Part shown: piece by piece, positions 8,652-15,794 of the stretch
Layout of the letters: each line of letters begins with the position of its first letter
Numbering within the stretch: position 1 is the stretch's first letter
Assembly: GCF_027497215.1 (NCBI RefSeq)
Contig: NZ_CP114904.1
Location: forward strand, 5,661,001-5,725,000
Length of the DNA stretch: 64,000 bases
Source: Micromonospora sp. WMMD812
Lineage (GTDB): Bacteria; Actinomycetota; Actinomycetes; Mycobacteriales; Micromonosporaceae
Direction of reading: 5' to 3'
Position numbers and translations under genes: made by a program
Notes under the pieces: generated by a model
What the model was told of the DNA's origin: nothing
What the model saw: only the letters and a program-made list of their open reading frames with translations
Databases searched by the model: none

Positions 8652-10109
8652 GAGCGTTATGACTCTCCGGCATATTTATGGCTCTTGTGACGTGTTGTGG
8701 GTGGTTGGGCGCGTCCTTGATGGCGCACGCCGTTGTCCTGCCTAGGTTCTGGCTTGTCGAGGTCAGAACTGGATGGGCGGGAGAACGGCGTGCGTTCTGC
8801 CAGGGTATGGGCTGGGCTGCTCGGGGTCGAGCAGGCGGTGGTGGAGGGTGTGGAGTTCGATCCGGACGAGTCGGTGGTGGTGGCTCGGGTGCGGGTGCGT
8901 AAGGGCGCGTCGCGGCGGTGTCCGTATTGCCGGCGGCGGTGTGCCCGTTATGACGCTGGGGTGCGTCGTCGGTGGCGGGCGTTGGATCTCGGGACGGTGC
9001 GGGCGGTGATCGAGGCGGACGCGCCTCGGGTGTCCTGTCGGGTGCATGGGGTGGTCGTGGCGGCGGTGCCGTGGGCGCGTCACGGGGCGGGGCACACACG
9101 GGCGTTCGACGCGACGGTGGCGTGGTTGGCGGTGCACACGGCGAAGTCGGCGGTGTCGCAGCTGATGCGGGTCGGTTGGCGCACGGTGGGGTCGATCGTG
9201 GCCCGGGTATGGGCCGATACCGGTGGCCTTGAGGACCGGTATGACGGGTTGCGTCGTATCGGGATCGACGAGGTCAGCTACAAGAAGGGGCACCGGTATC
9301 TGACCGTGGTCGTGGACCATGACAGCGGCCGGTTGGTGTGGGCGGCGCCGGGTAGAAGCGCCACCACGTTACAGGCGTTCTTCGACCTGCTCGGTCCCGA
9401 GCGGGCCGCGAAGATCACGCACGTGTCGGCCGACGGCGCGGACTGGATCACGACGGTCGTGCGGCGCAGGTGCCCGAACGCGGTCCGCTGCGCCGACCCG
9501 TTCCACGTGGTGGCCTGGGCCACCGACGCCGTTGACCGGGTTCGCCGTCAGGCATGGAACGAGGCCACCGGGCGAGGAGCCGGCCGCCGCGGTGTCGCCA
9601 CCGGCGAGGCCCGAGAGCTGAAGAACACCCGCTGGGCGTTGTGGAAGAACCCCGACAACCTCACCGACGCCCAGCAGGCCAAACTCGCCTGGATCGCCAA
9701 GACCCATCCCCGCCTGCACCGGGCCTGGGCGTTGAAAGAGGGCCTACGGCTGGTGTTCACCCTGGCCAGGACCAGCCCGACCACGGCGGTCGAAGCCCTC
9801 GACCGGTGGATCGGATGGGCCCGACGCAGCCGCATCGACGTCTTCGTCGACCTGCAACGACGCGTCACGCGACACCGCGACCAGATCATCGCCGCCATCG
9901 AACACGGCCTGTCCAACGGCCGGATCCAGTCGGTCAACACCAAGATCCGCCTGATCACCCGGATGGCCTTCGGCTTCCACTCAGCCGAAGCCCTCATCGC
10001 CCTGGCCATGCTCAGCCTCGGCGGCCACCGACCCGAACTACCCCGACCATGACCCCGACCCACACATCAATCACAAGAGCCATAAATATGCCTCACAGTC
10101 ATAACGCTC
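8652..10109 (+). mobile_element. ISL3-family insertion sequence, copy 1
   Basis: A 1,458-bp element bounded by inverted repeats of about 39 bp: both ends begin GAGCGTTATGACT and contain GGCATATTTATGGCTCTTGTGA, with a short variable stretch between. One transposase gene fills it. The second copy at 55885-57343 is in the opposite orientation and nearly identical, so both moved recently. I see no direct target duplication at these outer boundaries. If the ends are instead placed at GGCTCTTGTGA, the flanking AT-rich octamers of copy 2 match at 7 of 8 positions. The element lies between the pdtaS-like kinase gene and a glycosyltransferase gene. Confidence 0.92.
8790..10052 (+). CDS. ISL3-family transposase, probably inactive (Glu to Gln at motif E)
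   Basis: 420 residues from GTG 8790, which follows GGGAG; an upstream TTG at 8733 is open but poorly supported. It has an N-terminal zinc finger CPYCRRRCARYD, a helix-turn-helix region, and a DDE core: GIDEVSYKKGHRYLTVVVD, then VRCADPFHVVAWATDAV, then HGLSNGRIQSVNTKIRL. ISL3 relatives have SNGxxEGxN here, the E being the third catalytic acid. This copy reads CAG (Gln380) at 9927-9929, while copy 2 reads GAG. Residue 259 is Ala here and Thr in copy 2. A Gln in place of the metal-binding Glu should abolish catalysis. Confidence 0.9.
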   Translation: MRSARVWAGLLGVEQAVVEGVEFDPDESVVVARVRVRKGASRRCPYCRRRCARYDAGVRRRWRALDLGTVRAVIEADAPRVSCRVHGVVVAAVPWARHGAGHTRAFDATVAWLAVHTAKSAVSQLMRVGWRTVGSIVARVWADTGGLEDRYDGLRRIGIDEVSYKKGHRYLTVVVDHDSGRLVWAAPGRSATTLQAFFDLLGPERAAKITHVSADGADWITTVVRRRCPNAVRCADPFHVVAWATDAVDRVRRQAWNEATGRGAGRRGVATGEARELKNTRWALWKNPDNLTDAQQAKLAWIAKTHPRLHRAWALKEGLRLVFTLARTSPTTAVEALDRWIGWARRSRIDVFVDLQRRVTRHRDQIIAAIEHGLSNGRIQSVNTKIRLITRMAFGFHSAEALIALAMLSLGGHRPELPRP

Positions 10110-11845: not shown

Positions 11846-12195
11846 GATGCCGAGCCTCGCACACCGTTGTGCCCGACGGGGCCGGAGCGGACGCAGCCGC
11901 CGCCGCTCAGGCCCGTCATGTGGGATCGGGCACGCGGACATTGGCCGGTCTGCTCGGCGTGTGGCAGCATGACGAGCATGACCGCCGCTGTCGTACGCCG
12001 CTTCGTGGCTCGTCGCCACGTCGACTACGGCCGCGTGCGCAGCGCCATCTGTCCGGCCTACTGACGACGCCCGATCATTCTGTCTCGGGCGCGTTCCGCG
12101 CCGGCCCTCCTGACACCGTTGTCCTGAGCCCGTAACTGACGGGCCGCCGTCGCGTACGCGCTCCACCGGCACCGCAGACAACGGAGGACGCCGCG
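11846..12195 (+). other. 5' control region of the sulfite reductase operon
   Basis: 350 bp between the divergent glycosyltransferase and sulfite reductase genes. It holds a 28-codon leader ORF (11978-12064) and, after it, two hairpins: CGCCCGA/TCGGGCG at 12068-12074 and 12085-12091, and GCCCGT/ACGGGC at 12128-12133 and 12139-12144. This arrangement suggests attenuation or translational control of the cys genes. A good Shine-Dalgarno (CGGAGGACG) precedes the ATG at 12196. Confidence 0.55.
11978..12064 (+). CDS. Putative regulatory leader peptide of the cys operon (28 aa)
   Basis: A 28-codon ORF starting MTAAVVRRFVARRHVDYGRV and ending RSAICPAY. The RRHVD...R..SAICP pattern is shared by short leader peptides in front of sulfur-metabolism genes in Streptomyces and relatives. 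A single cysteine lies near the end, so ribosome stalling under cysteine shortage could be sensed. The ORF ends four bases before the first post-leader hairpin (12068) and 131 bp before the sulfite reductase start, an attenuator-like geometry. The mechanism is inferred from position and motif. Confidence 0.8.
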   Translation: MTAAVVRRFVARRHVDYGRVRSAICPAY

Positions 12196-13908
12196 ATGGC
12201 GGTCAGCAGCATCCCGGCCAGGTCCGACGACCCGACGGCACGCCCCACCCGGGCACCGCGGCGCCCTCGTGGAGAGGGCCAGTGGGCCCTTGGCCACCGT
12301 GAGCCGCTCAACCCGAACGAGCGGACCAAGAAGGACGACAACCCGCTCAACGTGCGGGCCCGGATCGAGAACATCTACGCCCACCGCGGCTTCGCCTCCA
12401 TCGACCCGGCCGACCTGCGCGGCCGGTTCCGTTGGTGGGGCCTCTACACCCAGCGCAAGGCGGGCATCGACGGCGGGCGTACGGCCGTGCTCGAGCCGCA
12501 CGAGCTGGAGGACGAGTTCTTCATGCTCCGGGTCCGGGTCGACGGGGGCCAGCTCTCCCTGGCCCAGCTGCGGACGATCGCCGGGATCTCCGAGGAGTTC
12601 GCCCGGGGCACCGCCGACATCACCGACCGGCAGAACATCCAGCTCCACTGGGTCCGGGTCGAGGACGTGCCGGAGATCTGGCGCCGGTTGGAGTCGGTGG
12701 GCCTGCAGACCACCGAGGCCTGCGGCGACTGCCCCCGGATCGTGCTGGGCAGCCCCGTCGCCGGGGTGGCCGAGGCGGAGGCGATCGACCCGACCCCGGC
12801 GATCGACGAGATCGTCCGCCGGTACGTGGGCGACCCGCAGTACTCGAACCTGCCGCGCAAGTTCAAGTCGTCGATCTCCTGGCTCGTGGACACCCCGTAC
12901 GAGGCGAACGACATCGCCTTCCTCGGCGTCGACCACCCCGAGCACGGCCCCGGCTTCGACGTCTGGGTCGGCGGCGGCCTCTCCACCAACCCGATGCTGG
13001 CCCAGCGGCTGGGCGTCTGGGTGCCGCTGGCCGAGGTGCCGGACGTCTGGGCCGGCGTGGTCGGCATCTTCCGCGACTACGGCTACCGGCGGCTGCGCCA
13101 CCGGGCGCGGCTGAAGTTCCTGCTCGCCGACTGGGGCATCGAGCGCTTCCGGGAGGTGCTGGAGAAGGAGTACCTCGGCCGGACGCTGCTCGACGGACCC
13201 GCCCCGCAGCTTCCCGACAAGCCGGTCGATCACATCGGCGTGCACCGGCAGCGGGACGGCCGGCACTACGTCGGCGGCGCTCCGGTCGTCGGCCGGGTCT
13301 CCGGCGGGCAGCTGGCGAAGCTGGCCGACGTCGTCCAGGCGCACGGCAGCGACCGGGTGCGGCTCACCCCGTACCAGAAGCTGCTGGTGCTGGACGTGGC
13401 ACCGGAGCGGACCGAGTCGCTGGTCGGCGCGCTGCGGGAGATCGGCCTGGAGGCCCGCCCGTCGGCCTGGCGGCGCGGCACCATGGCCTGCACCGGCATC
13501 GAGTACTGCAAGCTCGCCATCGTCGAGACCAAGGCCCGGGGCGAGGAGCTGGTGGCCCGGCTCGAAGAGCGGCTGCGCGACTTCGACGCGGACATCTCGA
13601 TCCACCTCAACGGGTGCCCGAACGCGTGCGCCCGGACGCAGGTGGCCGACATCGGCCTCAAGGGCCAGCTGGTGGTCGGCCCGGACGGCCGCCAGGTGGA
13701 GGGCTTCCAGGTGCATCTCGGCGGCGGCCTCGGCATGGCCGCCGGGCAGACGTCGGGCTTCGGCCGCAAGCTGCGCGGCCTGAAGACCACGGCCGAGGAG
13801 CTTCCGGAGTACGTGGAACGGTTGGCCCGCCGCTACCTGGCCGGCCGGCACGAGGGCGAGGCGTTCGCCCAGTGGGTGATCAGAGTCGACGAGGAGGAAC
13901 TGCGATGA
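12196..13908 (+). CDS. sir: Ferredoxin-dependent assimilatory sulfite reductase (NirA/SirA-type)
   Basis: 570 residues that reduce sulfite to sulfide with siroheme and a 4Fe-4S cluster. The four cluster ligands are visible as C-x5-C (ACTGIEYC, Cys432 and Cys438) and C-x3-C (NGCPNACAR, Cys474 and Cys478). Tyr84 (WWGLYTQRK) and Cys176 (TEACGDC) are separated by 92 residues exactly as the Tyr-Cys pair that forms a covalent link in mycobacterial NirA. The context (cysH, siroheme chelatase, leader peptide) argues for sulfite instead of nitrite. An N-terminal extension of about 30 residues is disordered. The stop overlaps the next start (ATGA). Confidence 0.93.
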   Translation: MAVSSIPARSDDPTARPTRAPRRPRGEGQWALGHREPLNPNERTKKDDNPLNVRARIENIYAHRGFASIDPADLRGRFRWWGLYTQRKAGIDGGRTAVLEPHELEDEFFMLRVRVDGGQLSLAQLRTIAGISEEFARGTADITDRQNIQLHWVRVEDVPEIWRRLESVGLQTTEACGDCPRIVLGSPVAGVAEAEAIDPTPAIDEIVRRYVGDPQYSNLPRKFKSSISWLVDTPYEANDIAFLGVDHPEHGPGFDVWVGGGLSTNPMLAQRLGVWVPLAEVPDVWAGVVGIFRDYGYRRLRHRARLKFLLADWGIERFREVLEKEYLGRTLLDGPAPQLPDKPVDHIGVHRQRDGRHYVGGAPVVGRVSGGQLAKLADVVQAHGSDRVRLTPYQKLLVLDVAPERTESLVGALREIGLEARPSAWRRGTMACTGIEYCKLAIVETKARGEELVARLEERLRDFDADISIHLNGCPNACARTQVADIGLKGQLVVGPDGRQVEGFQVHLGGGLGMAAGQTSGFGRKLRGLKTTAEELPEYVERLARRYLAGRHEGEAFAQWVIRVDEEELR

Positions 13909-14066
13909 GCAGCGAGAACCGTGCGGCACCCCTGTACTGCCCCTACTGCGGCGAAGAGGACCTGCGGCCGAGCGAGACGGGCCACGGCGCCTGGGAGTGC
14001 CACGCCTGCGCCCGGGTCTTCACGGTGAAGTTCACCGGCCTGCTCAGCCGGGCGGTGGCCCGGTGA
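13905..14066 (+). CDS. Small zinc-ribbon protein of the sulfite reductase operon (53 aa)
   Basis: A 53-residue protein with two Cys pairs: YCPYCGEEDLRPSETGHG and then WECHACARVFTVKFTG. The spacing is that of a zinc ribbon or rubredoxin-like knuckle. It overlaps the sulfite reductase stop by four bases and has a strong ribosome site (GAGGAGGA), so it is clearly expressed with the operon. To my knowledge a similar small gene lies between sulfite reductase and cysH in Streptomyces. Its function is not known to me. An electron-transfer or assembly role for the reductase is plausible, but only the metal-binding motif is seen. Confidence 0.85.
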   Translation: MSSENRAAPLYCPYCGEEDLRPSETGHGAWECHACARVFTVKFTGLLSRAVAR

Positions 14067-14118: not shown

Positions 14119-14880
14119 GTGAGTCTCGTGTCGGCGGCGGGTCTGGGCCTGGTCGGGATCGGCGGCTCGAAGCCGGCCGGTGTGCCGGGTCGGAGCCCCG
14201 AGGAGCTGCGTGCGCTGGCCGAGGAGGCCGGCCGGGAGCTGGAAGGTGTTCCGGCGCTGGAGATCGCCCGCTGGGCGGCGGAGACCTTCGGTGACCGGCT
14301 CTGCGTGACCAGCTCGATGGCCGACGCGGTGCTGGCTCACCTGGTGTCCCGGGTGGCGCCCGGGGTGGACGTGGTCTTCCTCGACACCGGCCTGCACTTT
14401 CCCGAGACGCTCCGGGTCCGCGACGAGGTCGCCCGGACGCTGCCGGTGACCGTACGGTCGATCCGGCCCCGTCTCACAGTGGGCCAGCAGGACGGGCAGT
14501 ACGGGCCGCGGCTGTTCAACAAGTCCCCGGACGACTGCTGCCAGCTGCGCAAGGTGGAGCCGCTCGAGCGGGCGCTGTCCGGGTACGACGCGTGGGCCGC
14601 CGGGCTGCGCCGGGACGAGTCGCCGACGCGGGCGAACACGCCGGTGGTGGCGTTCGACGCCCGGCGTGGAAAGGTCAAGGTCAACCCGATCGCGACCTGG
14701 ACGCAGGCCGACGTGGACGGCTACGTCGCCCGATGGAACGTGCCGGTCAACGAGTTGTTCAAGCAGGGCTACGGCTCGATCGGATGCTGGCCGTGCACTC
14801 GCCGTACCGCCGCGGGGGAGGACCCGCGGGCCGGGCGGTGGGCGATGTTCGAGAAGACCGAGTGCGGACTGCACGTCTGA
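14119..14880 (+). CDS. cysH: Adenosine 5'-phosphosulfate reductase (4Fe-4S type)
   Basis: 253 residues that reduce APS to sulfite and AMP with thioredoxin as donor. The two Cys pairs of the Fe-S type are present: DDCCQLRKVEPLERAL and GSIGCWPCTRRT. The catalytic cysteine is in the C-terminal ECGLH. VTSSMADAVLAHL is the PP-loop-like nucleotide site. Presence of all cluster cysteines indicates an APS, not PAPS, reductase. The GTG start follows AGGAGGCACCC. It lies 53 bp after the zinc-ribbon gene in the same operon. Confidence 0.94.
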   Translation: MSLVSAAGLGLVGIGGSKPAGVPGRSPEELRALAEEAGRELEGVPALEIARWAAETFGDRLCVTSSMADAVLAHLVSRVAPGVDVVFLDTGLHFPETLRVRDEVARTLPVTVRSIRPRLTVGQQDGQYGPRLFNKSPDDCCQLRKVEPLERALSGYDAWAAGLRRDESPTRANTPVVAFDARRGKVKVNPIATWTQADVDGYVARWNVPVNELFKQGYGSIGCWPCTRRTAAGEDPRAGRWAMFEKTECGLHV

Positions 14881-14897: not shown

Positions 14898-15794
14898 GTG
14901 GTGAGCGGGGCGGCGGCGCCTCGGCCGTCCGCCGATCCCGTCGTCCTGGTCGCGCACGGTAGCCGTGATCCGCGGGCTGCCGCGGCGACCGGGGCCCTGG
15001 CCCGGGCGGTGTCGGCGGCCCGCCCGGGCACCCCGGTGTCGGCGAGCTGGCTCGACCACACCGATCCGGATCCGGCCGAGGCGCTGCGGGCGCTCGCCGA
15101 CGCCGGTCATCCGCGGGCGGTGCTGGTCCCGGTGCTGTTGACCGCCGCGTACCACCGTCGGGTCGACATCCCGGCGGCGGTCGCCGCGGCCCGAGCCTCG
15201 GCGCCGTCACTGTCCGTACGGGTGACCGACGTGCTCGGTCCGGTTGGCGGGGCGGTGGACGGGAGTCTGCTGGCCGGCCTGCGGCGGCGGTTGGCGGAGG
15301 CGGAGCCGGGTCCGTTCGACGCGCTGGTGCTGGCCGCGGCGGGCACCCGGGACCCTCGGGCCCGCGGCTCGGTGGGTCAGGTGGCCGCCGCCCTCGGCAG
15401 CCGCCTCGGCGTGCCGGTCCGGGTGTCGTACGCCTCGGCCGCCCCGCCGACGGTCGACGCGGCGGTCGCCCGGCTGCGCGCGGAGGGTGCCCGCCGGGTG
15501 GCGGTGTCGGCGTACTTCCTGGCGCCCGGTCTCTTCCACGACGCGGTGACGGTGGCGGCGCGTGCCGCCGGTGCGGTGGCGGTCTCCGCGCCCCTCACCG
15601 ACGCCCCGGAACTCGCGGATCTCGTGCTGCGCAGAGTCGACGCCGCGCTGGCGGGCGGCCTGCCCCGGCCACTGACAACAGCCGTTGGGGCGCGGGTGGC
15701 CCGGAGCGGTGGACCGGGCCTCGGGCTGGTGTCGCGCGCGGCCCGCAGCGGCCGGTCGGCCGGCTCCGGACAGCAGAACGCCCCGGCGGGTTGA
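14898..15794 (+). CDS. Sirohydrochlorin chelatase (CbiX/SirB-like)
   Basis: About 298 residues with two chelatase repeats. The first opens with PVVLVAHGSRDPRAAAATG and contains a PVLLTAAYHRRVDIP loop; the second has DALVLAAAGTRDPRARGSVGQ and SAYFLAPGLFHDAV. These are the metal-binding His loops of class II chelatases that insert iron into sirohydrochlorin to make siroheme (or cobalt for B12). In an operon with a siroheme enzyme, ferrochelation is the likely job. GTG 14898 or 14901 is the probable start; GTG 14862, inside cysH, is also in frame. The stop codon is buried in a terminator hairpin. Confidence 0.85.
   Translation: MVSGAAAPRPSADPVVLVAHGSRDPRAAAATGALARAVSAARPGTPVSASWLDHTDPDPAEALRALADAGHPRAVLVPVLLTAAYHRRVDIPAAVAAARASAPSLSVRVTDVLGPVGGAVDGSLLAGLRRRLAEAEPGPFDALVLAAAGTRDPRARGSVGQVAAALGSRLGVPVRVSYASAAPPTVDAAVARLRAEGARRVAVSAYFLAPGLFHDAVTVAARAAGAVAVSAPLTDAPELADLVLRRVDAALAGGLPRPLTTAVGARVARSGGPGLGLVSRAARSGRSAGSGQQNAPAG

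Follow-up and report, generated by a model that had tools for sequence, protein, structure and literature searches.

The sirA leader and its gene region

The window (the whole 64-kb stretch of DNA analysed here, from a genome of 7.1 Mb) carries on its plus strand a short leader ORF in front of a group of sulfur genes. The leader ORF extends from 11978 to 12064 and comprises 28 codons plus UGA (ATG at 11978, UGA at 12062–12064); the peptide read from it, MTAAVVRRFVARRHVDYGRVRSAICPAY, has a single Cys codon, UGU at 12050–12052. Downstream lie the Shine-Dalgarno GGAGG of sirA (12183–12187, read from the sequence, in a conserved context) and sirA itself (12196–13908), encoding a sirA/nirA-type sulfite (nitrite) reductase of 570 aa with PF01077 and PF03460 domains, for which the best NCBIfam match, PRK09566, fell below its cut-off. 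These are followed on the same strand by cysH (14119–14880), a phosphoadenylyl-sulfate/adenylyl-sulfate reductase gene (NF002537, 268 bits against a cut-off of 154), and by a gene for a CbiX-type sirohydrochlorin chelatase (14898–15794; PF01903), whose start codon is uncertain. Between sirA and cysH, also on the plus strand, is a Cys-rich, zinc-ribbon-like ORF of 53 aa (13905–14066) that gave weak Pfam zinc-ribbon matches, all below cut-offs, and whose start overlaps the end of sirA. Upstream of the leader, at 8733–10052, we noted an ORF of 439 aa that appeared transposase-like by eye.

The first-pass annotation had placed a 28-codon ORF at exactly this position before the sulfite reductase operon, and comparison with relatives bears this out. 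Over codons 2–27 in 54 same-genus loci there were 168 synonymous versus 14 non-synonymous departures among 1404 cells, an excess which indicates that the leader peptide is under selection. NCBIfam searches matched the leader to NF042936, leader_Ms4527A (20.2 bits, E-value 3.1e-4), and to NF042934, cis_reg_atten (14.5 bits, E-value 0.021); as these scores lie below the curated cut-offs of 45 and 27 bits, respectively, the sirA leader is filed under neither model, though it is plainly related to both. Judged by the synonymous to non-synonymous count together with the NF042936 match, the leader ORF is far beyond chance, and by this match it is a homolog of the mycobacterial cysteine attenuator Ms4527A, which also precedes a sulfite reductase. 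Our own leader profile matched the site with an E-value of 3.6e-13, the profile itself including this leader.

A conserved promoter-like element, TGTGGCAGCAT, is located at 11960–11970 on the plus strand, with its CAGCAT at a distance of 7 nt from the start codon, a placement equal to the -10 position of a leaderless transcript. A loose form, GTGN[ACG]A..[ACT]T at 5–8 nt before the start, was found in 54/54 genus, 39/50 family and 34/41 order loci (0.1 in shuffles), although the family and order counts are partly circular, as starts there were chosen by a matrix of the same element, while the genus start is fixed by position. The strict form was present in 42 genus, 13 family and 4 order loci. 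The placement of the element makes 11978 a more likely leaderless start than the AUG at 11969.

Distribution of the leader

The sirA matches were drawn from 61 genus, 61 family and 81 order genomes, some genomes being in more than one draw; approximately 176 genomes had a sirA match, of which about 14 were left out, and 163 upstream loci were inspected (one locus being present under two designations). Conservation among relatives had been proposed in the first-pass annotation as a check on the leader, and a leader was found upstream of sirA in 158 of these 163 genus, family and order loci, 145 by a strict pattern, a further 12 by a relaxed pattern, and one, L160, as a variant; in the remaining five it was found by neither pattern. 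We also assembled a named set, consisting of the best 80 of 591 loci and picked by sirA alone (species overlap with the other set is possible), and 79 of these 80 had the leader before sirA. Within this named set (best 80 of 591), the sirA of the present genome is most similar to that of Micromonospora. The named carriers among these best 80 of 591 include Micromonospora, Actinoplanes, Glycomyces, Kribbella and Jiangella, as well as Streptomyces.

A profile built from 20 leaders matched 85 of the 98 class genomes, with a maximum of 14 matches per genome. The class loci used below comprise 60 retrieved in addition to an initial batch, among the matches listed, and 11 of 98 class-scan loci, L204 among them, had no match to the pattern. 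Altogether 238 leaders were collected, which after removal of 15 repeats gave 223 distinct leaders. The leader is one member of a group of related leader peptides located before sulfur genes across the actinobacteria.

The genome examined here has three such leaders, all with UGU: that of sirA, one that precedes a rhodanese gene (L061; PF00581) and passes the NF042934 cut-off with 37.7 bits, and one upstream of an amino-acid ABC transporter (L204). The last of these is on the minus strand (G000:C1:260318-260380) and ends ...RRRHVDMMWVCSAACRPSAGR, and the transporter downstream of it (PF00497, PF00528) has subunits that resemble cystine and other amino-acid transporters in NCBIfam, below the cut-offs of those models. 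In three further genomes the leader before sirA lies back to back with a second leader on the other strand, which precedes a gene that appeared by eye to be CysC-like, chelatase-like or PAPS-reductase-like.

A single cysteine codon held at UGU

The first-pass annotation had doubted a simple stalling model since the peptide has only one Cys, and this worry was not sustained. One Cys is the usual state, found in 50 of the 79 leaders of the named set (best 80 of 591; the count of Cys begins 12 residues ahead of the motif and runs to the stop), and position 25 was Cys in 222 of the 223 distinct leaders, the exception being one leader without Cys at the aligned place. Clusters of Cys on the same core were found in four leaders of one family (f8), which is probably mycobacterial. 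As a single Cys in a fixed position is the common arrangement and its codon is held at UGU, we do not favour the earlier suggestion that the peptide "may sense something else".

The codon of Cys25 (12050–12052, plus strand) was UGU in 217 and UGC in 5 of these leaders; in comparison, UGU made up 41 of 611 Cys codons (6.7%) of sirA in the genus, family and order loci (Fisher p 2e-149, for sequences that are related and hence not independent). The same contrast was present within the leaders. In the class set, among the matches listed, the aligned Cys was UGU in 78/79 versus 4/52 at other leader Cys codons, and in the family in 49/49 versus 2/12, while in the order set the contrast was weak (36/40 versus 10/18) and, with UGU at 10 of those 18 other codons, is not clean. 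The genus leaders had no further Cys codon within the part counted; in the rhodanese leaders of the genus, the aligned Cys was UGU in 25/25 versus 3/50 at other Cys codons. UGU was also present in 11 of the 12 leaders identified with the relaxed pattern, and in L204. In the named set (best 80 of 591) UGU was found in 67/79 leaders versus 21/439 sirA Cys codons, and of the 12 leaders with UGC, 11 were from Pseudonocardiaceae genera and one from Cellulomonas; one clade thus seems to have relaxed the UGU constraint. The 11 Pseudonocardiaceae loci include Kutzneria, Lentzea, Saccharothrix, Saccharopolyspora and similar genera, and one Pseudonocardia locus (L363) retains UGU.

To what extent U in the third position is particular to this codon can be seen from its neighbors. 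Among the 13 motif codons before Cys, the third base was T in 322 of 2899, and in the class set (among the matches listed) the third base of the Cys codon carried 1.90 bits of information against at most 1.29 bits at neighboring third bases. With no neighboring third base equally conserved in the class set, we did not favour the idea that UGU is held as a piece of an RNA helix. Some constraint at the RNA level is possible, since certain codons of the leader are U-richer than those of sirA (GAU at D16 in 70/223 leaders, 31%, versus 4.5%; CGU at R12 in 70/223, 31%, versus 6.8%) and since Ser22 (12041–12043 and relatives) is AGC in 185/202 leaders versus 27% in sirA. This use of AGC may be due either to inertia or to RNA constraint, as AGC to UCN takes two steps. 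The base after UGU was C in 66/79 class leaders, among the matches listed, and codon positions 1 and 2 of Ser22 and Val20 nearby were conserved to about the same degree.

The residue after Cys was Arg in 39, Pro in 18, Leu in 9, Cys in 5, a stop in 3 and another residue in 5 of the class leaders (among the matches listed). The Cys codon was the last codon in 7 of the 223 distinct leaders, from which we conclude that nothing 3' of Cys is needed. At least two tRNA-Cys genes were identified in this genome, both with anticodon GCA (the search pattern could miss others), so that UGU would be read by wobble; synonymous codons that are read by the same tRNA can differ in speed, as reported in the available portion of PMC4046918. 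The UGU constraint is therefore indicative of A-site decoding, and it suggests that a single rare UGU in the leader acts as a gauge of cysteine supply that is read by the ribosome.

A putative nascent-peptide element at fixed spacing

A second conserved feature of the leader is the putative nascent-peptide element R12-R-H14-V-D16-Y-G-R19 (12011–12034, plus strand), in which the amino acids are conserved while the synonymous codons vary. R12, D16, R19 and Cys25 are at fixed spacing, and the codons of the first three are synonymously variable (R12: CGC 98, CGU 70, CGG 35, CGA 18 and AGG 2; D16: GAC 153 and GAU 70). The conservation of these four residues is partly built in, as the strict pattern demands R, Asp/Glu, R and Cys. 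R19 was replaced by Leu in L160 and by Trp in L204, and H14 by Ala (the rhodanese type), Glu or Tyr. A separate proposal, that HVD is conserved as RNA only, was rejected, as its codons vary synonymously. Taken from these sequence patterns, the evidence favours a gauge that would combine one slow codon dependent on Cys-tRNA with a nascent-peptide element, over the sensing of "something else".

RNA structure between the leader and sirA

The distance from leader stop to sirA start is 127–138 nt within the genus. Both stem-loops that had been described before the structural gene are present, and they differ in conservation. Hairpin 1 (12068–12091; 12068–12074 pairing with 12085–12091, 7 bp) had its core GCCCG..CGGGC in 52/54 same-genus and 16/46 same-family loci, whereas the second hairpin (12128–12144; 12128–12133 with 12139–12144, 6 bp), which was read from the sequence, is variable inside the genus and was not supported as a conserved part. 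A competing hairpin GGCGCG/CGCGCC at 12088–12102 (12088–12093 with 12097–12102), all three being on the plus strand, overlaps and excludes hairpin 1; its string was found in 40/54 genus and 16/46 family loci. The RNA tests left out 17 loci lacking a clear sirA start.

A longer-range pairing is also available, between the CCGGC of the Pro-Ala codons (12053–12057, plus strand) and GCCGG at 12100–12104, and by exact string this pair was present in 54/54 genus and 25/46 family loci. We aligned 46 Micromonosporaceae sequences (14 genus, 32 family) chosen for an ordinary length of 100–150 nt; ten odd family loci, omitted by hand, and L141 are outside this alignment, a selection which favours common structure. 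RNAalifold predicted eight pairs on it, with CCGGC/GCCGG enclosing a GCCC/GGGC hairpin and one pair changed on both sides. The four consensus pairs of CCGGC/GCCGG were formed in 44–46 of the 46 sequences with no compensatory change, and where covariation is lacking, conservation of this kind is poor evidence of pairing.

The stretch from -12 to +45 nt of the leader stop folded better than shuffled sequences. Its mean z was -1.97 in the genus (54 loci) and -1.48 in the family (49), with -0.87 in the class (79, among the matches listed) and only -0.22 in the order (41); in a control stretch 250–360 nt past the stop the values were +0.11, -0.08, -0.52 and -0.53 for genus, family, class and order, respectively. 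A hairpin after the leader stop is conserved, and the -12 to +45 stretch is over-structured in genus, family and class, the order sample being the exception.

Release of the sirA ribosome site was not seen in our folding and co-variation tests. With one ribosome placed at Cys25, opening of the sirA start became cheaper by 1.04 kcal/mol for the genus (54 loci), by 0.26 for the family (46) and by 0.13 for the order (24); under the equilibrium folding used, larger effects were obtained when the ribosome stood at the leader stop (in genus and family) or at the leader start (in the genus). Closure of the sirA start region exceeded that of shuffles in the genus (n=19, 15.4 versus 13.8, p 0.03), with p 0.08 in the family (n=46) and no excess in the order (n=24, p 0.92). 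In swap tests for co-evolution of segments, 29 of 30 gave p ≥0.22, the exception (p 0.023) being the test of the leader 5' end with the ribosome site within the genus. That pairing, between TGACCGCC at the leader 5' end and GGCGGTCA at the sirA start, was strong in the genus and was rejected, as the low swap p was absent in family and order. A helix sequestering the Shine-Dalgarno, CCGTTGTC/GACAACGG, was dropped as a switch (exact in 30/54 genus loci and 1/46 family loci, swaps flat), and with it a near-copy in the D-Y-G codons (GACTACGG) that had been considered as its switch partner, for which the swaps were likewise flat.

We found no intrinsic terminator, i.e., a hairpin with a U-run, in 11850–12250, and Rfam gave no match at gathering score in the window and none with an E-value up to 1 in 11930–12240.

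The gap also contains a palindrome, GACACCGTTGTC, at 12112–12123, which could be an RNA mini-hairpin or a DNA operator. Its general form GAC[AG]N4[CT]GTC was found 42–63 nt past the leader stop and was present in the leader-sirA gap of 52/54 genus (0.7 in shuffled sequences), 18/46 family (0.4) and 1/28 order loci (0.1); instead of forming an RNA hairpin, it may serve as an operator in the DNA. The string ACACCGTTGT has just two copies in the window, one on either side of the leader (11861–11870 and 12113–12122); the upstream copy is not common to the genus, a near form being found in 1/54 loci.

Proposed mechanism and alternatives

Cysteine- or sulfur-responsive attenuation, as put forward in the first-pass annotation, is the best-supported reading of the locus, based on the homologous leaders at nirA/Msmeg_4527 and cysA2 and on the rhodanese and transporter copies; the hairpins may have a part in it, the second of them not being conserved. 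The overall explanation we prefer, with a probability of roughly 60%, is attenuation of sirA-cysH by cysteine through the single UGU, with refolding of the leader. The transcript would be leaderless, with its 5' end at or beside the AUG at 11978. With the ribosome at Cys25, the RRHVDYGRV segment would lie in the exit tunnel and the single UGU in the A site, where tRNA-Cys(GCA) would read it by G-U wobble. If Cys-tRNA were scarce, the ribosome would wait at UGU, its footprint would mask the Pro-Ala codons at 12053–12057 and so prevent their pairing with 12100–12104, and the RNA from leader to sirA would refold, giving more sirA-cysH translation; if Cys were plentiful, the ribosome would finish the leader, the closed fold would form, and the operon would remain low. 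A halted ribosome may raise sirA by releasing the Shine-Dalgarno, by causing a queue of ribosomes that masks the 5' end of the leader, or by protecting the RNA from Rho.

The peptide element invites a different view of the signal, in which the leader would be an arrest peptide like TnaC, with R12, D16 and R19 forming a tunnel site for free cysteine, O-acetylserine or sulfide, and arrest would depend on this ligand and not on tRNA charging. The fixed spacing of these residues to Cys25 is as expected for such a site, and their distances of 12, 8 and 5 residues before the P site equal those of TnaC, a likeness that was noticed post hoc and serves as a lead. Such a site would leave the choice of UGU over UGC unexplained, however, and it has to accommodate seven leaders that end at Cys as well as the replacement of H14 by Ala, Glu or Tyr; we regard it as unlikely. 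We give slightly less weight to a coupling of translation to Rho-dependent termination, in which a stalled ribosome would keep Rho away from the stretch of RNA that separates the leader from sirA. The 127–138 nt gap, the absence of an intrinsic terminator from 11850–12250 and the weak RNA-structure support for release of the Shine-Dalgarno would all suit it, although a conserved hairpin directly past the stop is unexpected for a Rho site.

Strong conservation of the peptide would also be expected of a small protein that acts in trans, and leader translation could conceivably tune only the stability of the mRNA, with no sensing at all. Against either, the leader has sulfur genes as neighbors in each setting examined (sirA, rhodanese, transporter), carries a fixed Cys near its end with a constraint to UGU, and is homologous to attenuators, and we consider this very improbable.

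Returning to cysteine attenuation through the single UGU, a broader form of it would be a cysteine gauge common to the whole actinobacterial class, in which a UGU that is rare against the codon bias would be combined with a tunnel element R-x-[HA]-V-D-x-x-R that sharpens the sensitivity to Cys-tRNA; it would serve many sulfur operons and be ancestral, with the mycobacterial Cys runs coming later. We offer this extension tentatively, as somewhat less probable than not.

Relation to known leader peptides

Cysteine attenuators as a kind are already known, as is the NCBIfam naming of a "putative leader peptide". In mycobacteria, Cys-rich small ORFs are located before cysA2, Rv0485 and nirA, and attenuation is offered as a guess in the part of that study available to us (Shell 2015, PMC4633059). 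According to the accessible portions of two further sources, cysteine governs how fast ribosomes move along such leaders, and this speed regulates downstream translation (PMC9031893; PMC13236596). As far as these partial texts describe them, the mycobacterial sORFs of nirA/Msmeg_4527 and cysA2/Msmeg_5788 are similar to the leaders described here in having the same downstream genes (sulfite reductase, rhodanese) and, probably, a leaderless-type start; they are also alike in that the peptide is related by the NF042936 model and that cysteine attenuation has been proposed. The sirA leader differs from the mycobacterial Cys cluster in having one Cys, with UGU at one aligned position, and in its score below the NCBIfam cut-off. 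The "putative leader peptide" of NF042934 has the same core as the sirA leader, and the NCBIfam table seen gives no mechanism for it.

Canestrari 2020 reportedly tested cysteine attenuation by mycobacterial Cys-rich leaders. Among the features of leaders of the Canestrari type, the sirA leader has a position upstream of Cys/sulfur genes (sirA-cysH here, rhodanese and ABC transporter genes elsewhere) and, with its one Cys, no run of Cys codons. Further marks of that type are a short ORF with a leaderless start, for which the -10-like element near the start is suggestive here, an RNA fold hiding the ribosome site that a ribosome at Cys would relieve, for which the folding and swap tests above gave weak or negative signals, and expression that responds to cysteine.

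In Streptomyces lividans, trpL, ilvL and leuL are short leaderless leaders with codons for the product of their pathway, and trpL2 has one Trp (PMC8079986, in the part available). The sirA leader is likewise short and probably of leaderless type, with the difference, relative to what that part describes, that no terminator hairpin with a U-run is found here. The same 2021 survey presents, in its available part, eight leader peptides, none assigned to Cys (PMC8079986). Streptomyces sirA loci in our named set (best 80 of 591) do carry the sirA leader.

In TnaC, W12, D16 and I19 are 12, 8 and 5 residues before P24, W12 and D16 lying close to the constriction (PMC10941005, in the part available). 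If Cys25 is in the A site, the sirA leader would have an Asp and two further conserved residues that are equally far from the P site; unlike it, TnaC, as described there, belongs to a catabolic operon and is arrested by free Trp, and we claim no sequence homology between the two. The aligned Cys held at UGU and the R/D/R element at fixed spacing appear to be new, and neither the single-UGU constraint, nor the fixed R/D/R element, nor the spread of these leaders was found in the open-licence literature, a scope outside which Canestrari 2020 lies.

Attenuators are usually spotted by runs of the amino acid they sense, and here one codon seems to be enough; if a class-wide gauge exists, surveys for codon runs would miss such leaders. 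As the synonymous choice is strongly selected and a retained peptide motif accompanies it, it becomes testable whether a nascent peptide sharpens the response to one hungry codon. Such a gauge would carry a mycobacterial regulon over to a large part of the actinobacteria, among them producers of antibiotics.
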